Origin: Roseateles sp.
GTDB taxonomy: Bacteria > Pseudomonadota > Gammaproteobacteria > Burkholderiales > Burkholderiaceae_C
Assembly: GCA_016790285.1 (NCBI GenBank)
Contig: JAEUPJ010000025.1
Span: forward strand, 124,001 to 188,000
DNA length: 64,000 nt
Reading direction: 5' to 3'
Shown here: positions 4,711 through 35,054 of the stretch, one piece after another
Layout: every line of letters starts with the position of its first letter
Numbering within the stretch: the first letter of the stretch is position 1
Made by a program: the position numbers and the translations under genes
Notes under the pieces: model-generated
Databases searched by the model: none
The model's input: the letters and a program-made list of their open reading frames with translations, nothing else
What the model was told of the DNA's origin: nothing

Positions 4711-4806
4711 GTGGCTGTGCTCAATCAACACAGCCACAGAGACACAGAGTCACAGAGAGATCGGGGCAGAGGCACCGTTGCCTCTGTGTCTCTGTGCCTC
4801 TGTGGC
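4711..4806. repeat. palindromic repeat without a gene, between xylA and xylB
   Basis: Two inverted arms face each other. The left arm (about 4729-4760) and the right arm (about 4780-4806) are each built of three 8-base CACAGAG-type units, and they match with few mismatches. An extra short dyad, TGTGGCTG/CAGCCACA, sits at 4710-4739. The same unit forms the ends of the GxxExxY element at 32816-33252, and even the CGGGG next to the left arm resembles that copy. It lies in the xylA-xylB gap, so as RNA it can fold into a strong hairpin and may alter xylB expression; that is inference. Confidence 0.85.
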
Positions 4807-4822
4807 GTCTTTTCGGGACAGG

Positions 4823-31766: not shown

Positions 31767-32804
31767 ATGGACTTCACGATTGCCGCCATCCTCGGGCTCG
31801 ACGGCCTCACCAACGGGGCCATCTACGCCCTGGTCGCCCTGGCCCTGGTGCTGGTGTTTTCCGTCACCCGCATCATCTTCATCCCGCAGGGCGAGTTCGT
31901 CGCCTTCGGCGCCCTCACGCTCGCGTCGCTGCAGATGGGCAAGGTGCCGGGTACGGTGTGGCTGCTGCTGATGATGGCGGTGGCGGCGGCGGTGCTGGAC
32001 CTCGTGCAGGGCCTGCGCGAGGCACGGCCGCCGGCCCGCATCGCCAAGGGGCTGCTCGCCACGCTGGCGCTGCCGGTGGGGCTGGCGCTGGTGGTGCCGG
32101 CGGTGCTGCCGAGCCAACCCGCGCTGTGGCTGCAGGTGCTGCTGACGCTGGCCATCGTCACGGCCATGGGCCCGCTGCTGTACCGGCTGGCCTACCGGGC
32201 CTTGTCGGGCGCCAGCGTGCTGACGCTGCTGATCGTGTCGGTCGGCGTGCACTTCGCGCTGACGGGCATCGGCCTCGTGTTCTTCGGCGCCGAGGGCTAC
32301 CGCACGCCGGCCTTCTGGGACGCCCGTTTCGACCTCGGCCCGCTGAGCCTCACGGGCCAGACCCTGATCATCTTCGGCGCCTCGGTGGTGCTGCTGGTGG
32401 CCATGTACCTCTTCTTCGAGCGCACGCTCACCGGCAAGGCCCTGCGCGCGACGTCGGTCAACCGCACGGGCGCGCGGCTCATGGGCATCTCGGGCGACGC
32501 CGCGGGCAGCCAGACGTTCACGATGGCCGCCTTCATCGGCGCGCTGTCGGGCCTGCTGATCTCGCCGTCCACGACCATCTATTACGACACCGGCTTTCTC
32601 ATCGGCCTCAAAGGCTTCGTGGCGGCGGTGTTCGGCGGCCTGGCCAGCTTCCCGATGGCGCTGGGTGGCGCCATCGGCGTGGGGCTCATCGAGAGCTTCG
32701 GCTCGTTCTACGCCAGCGCCTTCAAGGAGGTCATCGTGTTCACGGTGATCCTGCCGGTGCTGCTGTGGCGGTCGTTCGTGGACCCGCACCACGAGGAGCA
32801 CTGA
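31767..32804 (+). CDS. livH: branched-chain amino acid-type ABC permease (LivH)
   Basis: This 345-residue inner-membrane permease has [24 protein letters not shown] near the N-terminus and the EAA-like stretch [25 protein letters not shown]. About 55 extra residues between helices 3 and 4 ([10 protein letters not shown] region) make it longer than E. coli LivH. Partners are the LivM-LivG fusion and LivF downstream. No substrate-binding protein is in view, so leucine-type amino acids, urea or another amide remain possible. Its TGA overlaps the ATG of the inserted GxxExxY gene. Confidence 0.88.
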
Positions 32805-33211
32805 TGACGGCAGCAGAACACAGCCACAGAGGCACAGAGGCACAGAGATACCGGGTCAGTGACACGGTCATCGCTGCCGCCATCGAAGTCCACAAGGAAC
32901 TCGGGCCGGGCTTGTTCGAAAGCGTCTATGAAGCCGCCATGGACATCGAGCTGAAGTCCCGCGGCGTGACCGTGCAGCGTCAGCTGGAGGTGCCCATGGT
33001 CTACAAAGGGCAGCCCCTTGGCTCCGCCTATCGCGTGGATCTGGTCGTCGAGCATGAGTTGGTGGTCGAGCTGAAGGCGGTGGAGCGCCTGGCGCCCGTT
33101 CATACGGCCCAGGTCTTGACTTACCTGCGCTTGCTCAAGCTGCGGGCAGGCTTGCTGATCAACTTCAATCACGCCCAACTTCGCCAAGGCGTGAAGAGGA
33201 TCTCGCTTTGA
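32804..33211 (+). CDS. GxxExxY-family protein (PD-(D/E)xK nuclease-like)
   Basis: The 135-residue protein carries the family motif G36-LF-E39-SV-Y42 and a PD-(D/E)xK-like core, Asp79, Glu89 and Lys91 in RVDLVVEHELVVELKA. Function is unknown in the family; a nuclease fold is predicted from the motif and no activity is known to me. The ATG overlaps the livH stop, and residues 6-16 are encoded by the left inverted repeat itself. The stop codon abuts the right repeat. It interrupts the livH-livM junction, so it is very likely an insertion translated by coupling to livH. Third-position GC is lower than in the flanking liv genes. Confidence 0.88.
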   Translation: MTAAEHSHRGTEAQRYRVSDTVIAAAIEVHKELGPGLFESVYEAAMDIELKSRGVTVQRQLEVPMVYKGQPLGSAYRVDLVVEHELVVELKAVERLAPVHTAQVLTYLRLLKLRAGLLINFNHAQLRQGVKRISL

Positions 33212-33252
33212 ACCCGCTCTCTCTGTGTCTCTGTGCCTCTGTGGCTGTGTTC
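32816..33252 (+). mobile_element. inverted-repeat-bounded GxxExxY element inserted in the liv operon
   Basis: The left arm 32816-32856 and right arm 33212-33252 are 41-base inverted repeats that differ at three positions. Each arm contains three tandem 8-base CACAGAG-type units plus CACAGC outside and CGGGT inside. The interior is almost entirely the GxxExxY reading frame. A copy of the arms with no gene lies at 4711-4806. No transposase, reverse transcriptase or integrase is present, and no target duplication was evident. Element status is inferred from the symmetry, the second copy and the disruption of an otherwise tight operon. Confidence 0.7.
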
Positions 33253-33269: not shown

Positions 33270-35054
33270 ATGATCGCCTTCAAGCGCTCCCACCTCGCGG
33301 CCGCGGCCGCCGTCCTCGTGTTCGCACTGCCCTTCGCGCCCGTGCCGGACTTCTGGGTCACGCAGCTCAACTACATCGGCCTGTTCTCCCTCGTCGTGCT
33401 GGGCCTCGTGCTGCTCACGGGCGTGGGCGGGCTCACGTCGTTCGGGCAGGCGGCGTTCGCCGGCGTCGGGGCGTACGCCACGGGCTATCTCACGACGGTG
33501 CTGGGTCTGTCGCCCTGGCTCGGCCTCGTGGCGGGCGTGGCCGTCACGATGGTGCTGGCCCTCGTCATCGGGGCGCTGACGCTGCGCATGTCGGGTCACT
33601 ACCTGCCGCTGGCCACCATCTGCTGGTGCCTGGCCCTGTACTACCTCGTCGGCAACCTGGAGGCCCTGGGCAAGTACGACGGGCTGCTGGGCCTGCCGGC
33701 GCTGCAGATCGGGGACTTCAGCTTCCAGAGCGAGCGGCGCATCTACCTGCTGATCTGGCTGGCCGCGCTGCTGGCGGCGGTCGGCGTGACACGGCTGCTG
33801 GACTCGCGGCCCGGGCGCATCATGCGGGCCCTCAACAGCAACCGCGGTGGTGGCGCCACCATGCCCGAGGCCATGGGCGCCAGCACCTTCCGCTACAAGC
33901 TGACGATGTTCGTCGTGGCGGCCCTGCTGGCCAGCGTGTCGGGGTGGCTCTATGCCCACATGCAGCGCAGCGTGAACCCGTCGCCCTTCGGCATCAAGTT
34001 CGGCATCGAGTATTTGTTCATGGCCGTGCTCGGCGGCATCGGCACGGTGGGTGGTGCGTTCACCGGCGCGGCCCTCGTCAAGCTCGCGGAAGACCAGCTC
34101 AAGGTCTGGCTGCCGCTGGTGTTCGGCGGCTCGGGCAACTACGAGATCATCGTGTTCGGTGTCGTGCTCGTGCTGGTGCTGCGCTTCGCACCCGACGGCC
34201 TGTGGCCGCTTTTCGCGCGCTGGCTGCCCGCTCGCGGCCACAAGGCCGTCGACGAGAACGCCCCGCGCCTGAGCGCGCGCAGCCACCCGCCGCGCGGCGC
34301 GGCGTTGCTGGACGTGCGCAAGATCCGCAAGCAGTTCGGCGGCCTCACCGCGGTGAACGACATCAGCTTCACGATCCGGGCTGGCGACATCGTCGGCCTC
34401 ATCGGCCCCAACGGCGCGGGCAAGAGCACCACCTTCAACCTCGTCTCGGGCGTGCTGCCGCTCACGGCGGGCGAGGTCGAGCTGCTGGGCCAGCGCGTGG
34501 ACGGCCGCGGCAGCCGGGAGATCGCCCGCGCAGGGCTCTCGCGCACCTTCCAGCACGTCAAGCTCGTGCCCGACATGACGGTGCTCGACAACGTCGCGCT
34601 CGGCACCTACCTGCGCACCCGCACGGGCACGCTGCAGGCCATGCTCGGCCTGAACGCCGCCGAGGAGGCCCAGGCGCGCGCCGAGGCCCTGCGCCAGCTG
34701 CGCCGCATCGGCCTGGAGGGGCAGGCGCACGAGCTCGCGGGCAACCTGGCGCTGGGCCCGCAGCGGCTGGTGGAGATCGCCCGCGCGCTGGCCAGCGACC
34801 CCTCGCTGCTGCTGCTGGACGAACCCGCCGCCGGCCTGCGCCACAAGGAGAAGGCCGCGCTGGCCGAGGTGCTGCGCCAGCTCAAGGCCGAGGGCCTGTC
34901 CCTGCTGCTGGTGGAGCACGACATGGATTTCGTCATGAAGCTCACCGACCGCATCGTCGTCATGGAGTTCGGCCGCCACCTGATGGAGGGCACGCCCGCC
35001 GAGGTGCAGGCCAGCCCGGCGGTGCGCGCCGCCTACCTGGGAGCGGACGAATGA
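33270..35054 (+). CDS. LivM-LivG fusion: ABC permease joined to its ATPase
   Basis: This 594-residue protein joins two subunits. Residues 1-320 are a LivM permease (GVGGLTSFGQAAFAGVGAYA, then GRIMRALNSNRGGGATMPEA). Residues about 345-594 are a LivG ATPase with Walker A at 379-387 (GPNGAGKST), signature-like LALGPQRLVEIARAL, Walker B LLLLDEPAAGL and the C-terminal extension typical of LivG. The start is the ATG at 33270, 17 bases after the right repeat of the inserted element; the frame upstream is repeat sequence. Fusions of this kind occur in some proteobacterial Liv-type systems. The stop overlaps livF. Confidence 0.92.
   Translation: MIAFKRSHLAAAAAVLVFALPFAPVPDFWVTQLNYIGLFSLVVLGLVLLTGVGGLTSFGQAAFAGVGAYATGYLTTVLGLSPWLGLVAGVAVTMVLALVIGALTLRMSGHYLPLATICWCLALYYLVGNLEALGKYDGLLGLPALQIGDFSFQSERRIYLLIWLAALLAAVGVTRLLDSRPGRIMRALNSNRGGGATMPEAMGASTFRYKLTMFVVAALLASVSGWLYAHMQRSVNPSPFGIKFGIEYLFMAVLGGIGTVGGAFTGAALVKLAEDQLKVWLPLVFGGSGNYEIIVFGVVLVLVLRFAPDGLWPLFARWLPARGHKAVDENAPRLSARSHPPRGAALLDVRKIRKQFGGLTAVNDISFTIRAGDIVGLIGPNGAGKSTTFNLVSGVLPLTAGEVELLGQRVDGRGSREIARAGLSRTFQHVKLVPDMTVLDNVALGTYLRTRTGTLQAMLGLNAAEEAQARAEALRQLRRIGLEGQAHELAGNLALGPQRLVEIARALASDPSLLLLDEPAAGLRHKEKAALAEVLRQLKAEGLSLLLVEHDMDFVMKLTDRIVVMEFGRHLMEGTPAEVQASPAVRAAYLGADE

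Follow-up and report, generated by a model that had tools for sequence, protein, structure and literature searches.

A predicted GxxExxY nuclease gene enclosed by inverted heptamer arrays suggests an overlooked, widespread mobile or self-serving DNA element

Between livH and livM in a 64,000-nucleotide stretch of Roseateles sp. DNA (assembly GCA_016790285.1, contig JAEUPJ010000025.1, positions 124,001 to 188,000; this whole stretch is hereafter called the window) lies a unit that consists of one small gene of the GxxExxY family and two inverted arrays of heptamers, the arms, which enclose the gene (Table 1). The unit suggests an overlooked, widespread mobile or self-serving DNA element. The explanation that we favor, with a probability of about 0.68, is a minimal propagating element: a RecB/Cas4-like nuclease gene would sit between inverted arrays that the nuclease recognizes, and the gene-less palindromes built from the same arrays, here called solos, would be its dependants. 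An earlier note on the window had suggested, in hedged form, a minimal element, either selfish or regulatory, the nuclease-like protein of which may work on its own ends; the co-variation between protein and arms and the gene-less copies described below strengthen that reading, and we infer the action of the nuclease on its ends.

The arms of the window unit are 41 nucleotides (nt) each and 93% complementary, with 3 mismatches, exactly as the earlier note had it; in each, AACACAGC precedes three CACAGAG-type units spaced 8 nt apart. The ATG of the GxxExxY open reading frame (ORF) overlaps the livH stop codon (TGATG), and the left arm encodes a part of the N-terminus of the protein (EHSHRGTEAQRYRV); this overlap and the translation confirm that the frame begins at the livH stop and takes part of its N-terminus from the arm. 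No transposase gene lies inside the unit, which had also been noticed before. The unit pattern CACAGAGGCACAGAG, allowing up to 3 mismatches, has 11 matches in the window versus 3.3 expected, and 0 of 100 shuffled sequences reached 11; six of the matches are at the GxxExxY gene and the remaining five are at the solo of the window.

Table 1. Features of the window related to the GxxExxY unit
Feature	Position	Strand	Basis
Solo: gene-less palindrome that has the arms of the gene unit, 24 nt between arrays	4727..4812	.	DNA fold z = -6.7
livH, host gene 5' of the insertion	31767..32804	+	BPD_transp_2 permease match; name livH from the earlier note
GxxExxY / PDDEXK_3 gene, 135 aa	32804..33211	+	ORF; TIGR04256 and PF13366 matches
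Left arm: GAACACAGC then three CACAGAG units at 8-nt spacing; encodes residues ~5-18	32816..32856	+	
Right arm: the left arm repeated in inverted orientation, directly 3' of the stop codon	33212..33252	-	
livM and ATPase part (which we take to be livG-like) in one frame, host gene 3' of the insertion	33270..35054	+	BPD_transp_2 permease match in 33270-34250

Arms of this kind occur at most of the GxxExxY genes examined. The homologue set combined the best 80 of 337 relatives from one contig scan with loci found by a hidden Markov model (HMM) search in genomes of the bacterial family, and 93 loci were tested after L033 (a near-copy of L032) and L144, L154 and L158 (short flanks) had been left out. 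At least two inverted tandem units of the form C[AG]CN[ACG][AC]G, 8–12 nt apart, were present on both flanks at 56 of the 93 loci, versus 1 of 556 offset placements and 9 of 93 loci on the wrong strand, the latter in part owing to flanks that contain a whole palindrome; when at least three units were required, the corresponding values were 31/93, 0/556 and 2/93. The arms around GxxExxY genes are arrays of mostly three to four heptamers at 8–12-nt spacing. A motif-free inverted-repeat score was also computed for 76 loci (4 of the 80 were left out for flanks below 150 nt); at 57 of them it exceeded the 99th percentile of 522 offsets, versus 126 of 1,118 cross-paired flanks. Because the query held the arm-coded N-terminus, loci found without it were scored as well: the score was above 28 at 12 of 15 family-HMM loci versus 43 of 169 cross-locus flank pairs, a cross figure that is probably inflated by the kinship of copies sharing a site, and at 27 of 42 paralogue loci versus 12 of 491 cross-locus flank pairs. 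Overall, a strong inverted repeat was present at 92 of 134 loci (the set left when 35 of 169 ORF matches with an identical domain or less than 160 nt of flank were dropped, which kept 42 of the 70 paralogue loci), so that in both the paired-unit and the inverted-repeat tests most of these genes have the arms on which the mobile-element proposal of the earlier note depended. Some GxxExxY genes (L104 and L037) have whole palindromes on their flanks and not just single arms.

The protein encoded in the window matches TIGR04256 (3.7e-44, 149.8 bits with a cut-off of 35, positions 2-115 of 116 in the model) and PF13366 PDDEXK_3 (4.7e-44, 149.9 bits with a cut-off of 22), which bears out the PD-(D/E)xK-like protein originally predicted. 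PDDEXK_3 was its sole Pfam match at E ≤ 0.001, with no Y1 (HUH) transposase match, and no match to the S23/IVP four-helix family appeared in the TIGR04256 and Pfam comparisons. The protein is predicted to have a RecB/Cas4-like PD-(D/E)XK core fold with near-invariant catalytic residues and is a putative nuclease. Its putative catalytic residues are E39, D79, E89, K91, Q103 and Y107, which we take to represent the D...ExK...QxxxY motif; among the 131 domains with a residue at these places (134 examined), D was found in 128, E in 131, K in 131, Q in 129 and Y in 123. The alignment of catalytic residues comprised 38 proteins, leaving out L063 and L107 (whose matched range contains in-frame stops) and, as a precaution, L079 and L102. 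The gene is under purifying selection, with a ratio of nonsynonymous to synonymous substitution (dN/dS) of 0.03–0.06 in six comparisons, of which five approach synonymous saturation. To our knowledge, GxxExxY is a large family without known function. Among the matches listed, open-access titles and abstracts gave no account of such repeats or of a role of GxxExxY; passages of open-access papers mention GxxExxY as a label given by a pipeline next to an RT gene and as a row of a gene table, and PF13366 in an expanded Pfam list.

From their sequences, the arms look cognate to the GxxExxY protein that they enclose. In 40 gene-bearing genomes of several phyla, each with 1-9 matches to a GxxExxY paralogue, we counted unit pairs at 8-, 9- and 10-nt spacing with the gene's own locus removed, and such pairs were at least threefold over the reversed control in 27 of the 40 genomes, again in several phyla. 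Among the 31 usable genomes (9 of the 40 were dropped, having no arm class or fewer than 10 genome-wide matches), the spacing of the dispersed repeats equaled the spacing class of the arms in 25, and the mean share in the matching class was 0.66 versus 0.35 by permutation, with 0 of 20,000 permutations as high. The spacing class also clusters on a tree of 87 proteins, from which proteins with an in-frame stop were left out. Across the 92 of 134 loci with strong arms, the k-mer distance between arms follows the distance between proteins in comparisons between genomes (r = 0.39). When arms were shuffled only among paralogues within a genome (16 genomes, 40 loci), 1 of 2,000 shuffles reached the observed value; genome composition is therefore removed as an explanation, and no other single result argues as strongly as this shuffle that the protein reads the arms. 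The heptamer varies, its dialect shifting between lineages and between protein subfamilies: judged by eye at a modest number of loci, proteins of the GPGLLE type have CRCRRAG, several GxGFLE types have CACAGAT/CRCRAAT and a type without the motif has CAGGATT. In the genome G305, the listed unit pairs are often arranged reverse-then-forward, with the units pointing outward.

The genome that contains the window (G000; 5.88 Mb, 107 contigs) carries one GxxExxY gene. Its sequence has 166 exact matches of the two-unit pattern versus 8 of the reversed pattern, and 240 versus 69 when up to 1 mismatch is allowed. Solos were taken from part of this genome (loci L002-L031 and L159-L178 and the window), in which 37 forward-then-reverse array pairs were found, the gene-bearing pair being 371 nt apart and the other 36 being 10-66 nt apart; eleven more rows were single reverse arrays, 9 of which were re-reads of right arrays already counted. 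Thirty-five gene-less pairs had enough flank for their neighbors to be considered; both neighbors were called in 31, and 25 of these 31 pairs sit between co-directional genes, as judged by crude ORF calling with no baseline. Where the ORF call is clean, the first unit of a solo begins ~9-44 nt after the upstream stop codon. In 25 solos placed in register, the units are 97% conserved (the third unit, which was unused in picking, 95%) and the linkers are 80% and 46% conserved, and the loops, 5-37 nt long, are unrelated, with a common 9-mer in 0 of 300 pairs. Because the unit is conserved, the loops are unrelated and the two arms of one element are no closer to each other than to other arms, it is the unit that is kept, not its pairing partner or the loop. 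Between G000 and its congener G005, the units of one common solo look better kept than its flanks, and the DNA and RNA folds of these repeats are strong. The solo of the window is shared with G005, and the matching gene junction is tight in G013. At the junction matching window position 4.7 kb, G011 has no solo and a different GC-rich, palindromic-looking insert.

Among 20 genomes of the genus, that of the window included, repeat abundance follows the presence of the GxxExxY gene. The five carriers have 314 (G002), 166 (G000), 144 (G017), 140 (G005) and 105 (G009) exact two-unit matches, and the 15 congeners in which the gene was not found have 100, 52, 40, 32, 29, 23, 7 and, in the remaining eight, 0. 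The five highest counts of the 20 are those of the carriers; with independent genomes, which these are not, the chance of that outcome would be 1 in 15,504. In a wider sample of the family, 17 of 250 genomes have the gene, and at least 10 matches were present in 3 of the 17 gene-positive versus 2 of the 233 gene-negative genomes, both of the latter being congeners, and one of the three positives being G053, the gene of which has arms in a different dialect; the other 14 gene-positive genomes have zero matches of the CACAGAG dialect.

The livH-livM site is polymorphic for the insertion. This livH is present in 19 of the 20 genus genomes, and the site holds the gene with its arms in 4 (including G000), a tight junction of 1-10 nt from stop to start in 13 and an unrelated insert in 2, one of which is only partly covered; of the tight junctions, L132 is on a contig fragment and L128 has two possible starts, so that an overlapping start is possible. 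The statement that livH and livM normally touch is thus true of the genus, and the alternative that all relatives carry the gene at this position, which the earlier note had named as contrary to mobility, is not what was found. The arm-gene-arm unit is wholly absent from the tight junctions. In the fifth carrier (G009), the gene occupies a second site in the genus, right after a stop codon, between a pyridine-nucleotide/4Fe-4S oxidoreductase gene and a POR gene, and has CACAGAG arms; the same arms were seen in separately assembled congeners. The comparison of filled with empty insertion sites covered two sites. At L124 and L130, the livH-livM junction contains a different GC-rich, palindromic-looking insert in place of the unit, and because these two junctions and that of G011 hold different inserts, gaps from a stop to the next start look like common insertion sites of unrelated repeats. 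Elsewhere in the family, many GxxExxY copies lie between trpE and trpG in several genera (L142-L157; seen by eye, with five ORF listings and Pfam for L149).

We propose that the protein binds and cuts the arms and that the palindromes spread by the following copy route. The two arrays may pair into a hairpin in single-stranded or cruciform DNA, in which the nuclease could recognize the regularly spaced heptamers and nick or trim the ends; host repair or replication might then leave an array pair at a new place. Such a place would often be a stop-to-start gap, where the insertion would do little harm and the gene could be translated with the host operon.

Several observations weigh against a propagating element of this kind. 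A strong inverted repeat is missing at 42 of the 134 loci, L155-L157 among them, and these three family copies have no detectable arms. The spacing class disagrees in 6 of the 31 genomes, three of which have mixed 8/9 arms, and both the abundance comparison and the spacing test treat genomes as unrelated. Seven congeners have 7-100 pattern matches with no gene detected, and G053 has 67 CACAGAG-pair matches, its only GxxExxY gene having CGCAGAG/CGCGAAG arms. The carriers do not form one clade on the livH tree, several forks of which are weak, and repeated loss, repeated gain or transfer is therefore needed. Within the solos, arms of one element differ by 3.56 mismatches versus 3.03 between elements, so that same-element arms are not closer; no target-site duplication signal was found in the 25 solos (3.96 versus 4.06 for mismatched flanks), and no recent copy was caught, because the loops are unrelated.

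The chief rival, which we regard as unlikely, is that the repeats serve the host: the units would be selected binding or processing sites, such as mRNA hairpins, cruciforms or DNA-repair landmarks, that are read by GxxExxY, and the gene's own arms would serve its autoregulation and not mobility. The near-complete conservation of the solo units beside looser linkers and free loops, the better-kept units of the G000/G005 solo, the location of solos after stop codons and mostly between co-directional genes, and the strong DNA and RNA folds would all suit such sites. However, the system is patchy in the genus, with the gene in 5/20 genomes and any exact pattern match in 12/20, and the insertion is polymorphic, occurs in different operons and is missing as a whole unit from tight junctions; it is because of this patchy presence, insertion polymorphism and variety of operons that we prefer an element to a housekeeping system.

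It is less probable still that the palindromes are moved in trans by another enzyme, either a Y1/RAYT or a DDE transposase, with GxxExxY as mere cargo. The repetitive extragenic palindromic (REP) sequences and their REP-associated tyrosine transposases (RAYTs) are an established route for spreading palindromes, as passages of PMC2817692 describe, and a blind scan of locus sequences for inverted pairs brought up Y1 transposase genes (IS200-like, PF01797) inside inverted repeats at two sampled loci, L074 (1415-2108) and L091 (1171-1843), on contigs with a GxxExxY gene as well. If GxxExxY were cargo, no co-variation with the dialect would be expected, yet the arms follow GxxExxY similarity even within genomes; moreover, four-helix-bundle genes of the same genomes carry GxxExxY units at 0 of 26 loci, the sole wide arm pair in the examined part of G000 (371 nt apart; up to 600 nt was looked for) encloses GxxExxY, and the arm consensus, AACACAGC-CACAGAG..., has neither the GTAG nor the CGTC tag that marks one end of a REP according to the abstract of PMC3733652. 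That the arms are merely slippage repeats, paired in inverted orientation by chance or by assembly error, is hardly credible: the units are indeed short and tandem, and 9 of 93 loci satisfy the two-unit test with the wrong strand too, but only 1 of 556 offsets passes, separately assembled congeners have the same arms, and protein and arms co-vary.

The proposed propagating element has likenesses to several known systems. As in passages of PMC2817692 and PMC3116915 on REPs, their paired form (REPINs) and RAYTs (TnpA-REP), a gene lies between two inverted copies of a dispersed repeat, and there are many gene-less pairs with variable spacers, the numbers of which follow the gene. The enzyme differs, however, being of the PD-(D/E)XK type and not a Y1 HUH transposase, as do the repeats, which are heptamer arrays and not one GTAG-tagged hairpin; by analogy, the GxxExxY unit may work like REP/RAYT, yet with no Y1 enzyme, no GTAG tag and array-type repeats it is not a member. 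Cas4, the RecB family and lambda exonuclease share the predicted fold and the D...ExK...QxxxY residues with GxxExxY, which differs in being a stand-alone protein of 115-135 aa at the loci examined, with cognate DNA arrays at its gene. In part of PMC8934634, one cas4 gene is labeled as a GxxExxY domain by a pipeline. Miniature inverted-repeat transposable elements are likewise short, dispersed, gene-less inverted-repeat units, whereas no target-site duplication signal was found in the sampled solos and their interiors are mutually unrelated.

The 23S rRNA intervening sequences with S23/IVP proteins (PF05635, TIGR02436) are similar to the GxxExxY unit in being ~0.4-kb units with one small ORF and terminal inverted repeats, and differ in having an unrelated protein family and another arm unit, mostly of period 7. 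According to part of PMC4990558, the Coxiella intervening sequence in 23S rRNA spans 428 nt, has a terminal stem of 28 bp, contains an S23 ORF and is called selfish, its mobility being only hypothesized there. TIGR02436 (four-helix, Pfam 23S_rRNA_IVP) is present in 31 of the 40 GxxExxY-bearing genomes. At the 26 of 30 loci with full flanks (L201-L230; the 4 with cut flanks were left out), no GxxExxY unit was found on both sides (0/26), and a strong inverted repeat was present at 25, versus 17 of 650 cross-paired flanks and 1 of 156 offset placements. Of the 26 loci, 21 have a best arm period of 7 or 14 nt and 3 have one of 8. The TIGR02436 arms are locus-specific, with units such as AGTTGTC, GAGTGGC and AGTCGAT.

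We consider it an even bet that these are instances of a general, undescribed class in which one small protein sits between inverted arrays of short units used by its own family, with at least two unrelated families (GxxExxY and 23S_rRNA_IVP). If this is true, GxxExxY subfamilies would read different dialects (CRCRRAG, CACAGAT, CAGGATT) and 23S_rRNA_IVP proteins mostly 7-nt units, gene-less palindromes would make up a large and so far anonymous share of the repeats that lie between genes across the bacterial phyla, and the 23S rRNA intervening sequences would represent elements that chanced to land in rRNA, which offers a possible reason for their inverted repeats. Tying GxxExxY to the repeats gives a testable role to both, as a nuclease and its arrays, paired by a sequence code that can be read, and would make GxxExxY an independent counterpart of the role that RAYTs have for REPs. 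A minimal nuclease that reads spaced heptamers could additionally be a useful model for sequence recognition by enzymes of the Cas4/RecB type.

The contig of L033, titled as a Methylotenera sp. metagenome-assembled genome, has a Roseateles-type liv operon with the element and is close to R. puraquae (pS 0.109); it is probably mis-binned or mis-named.
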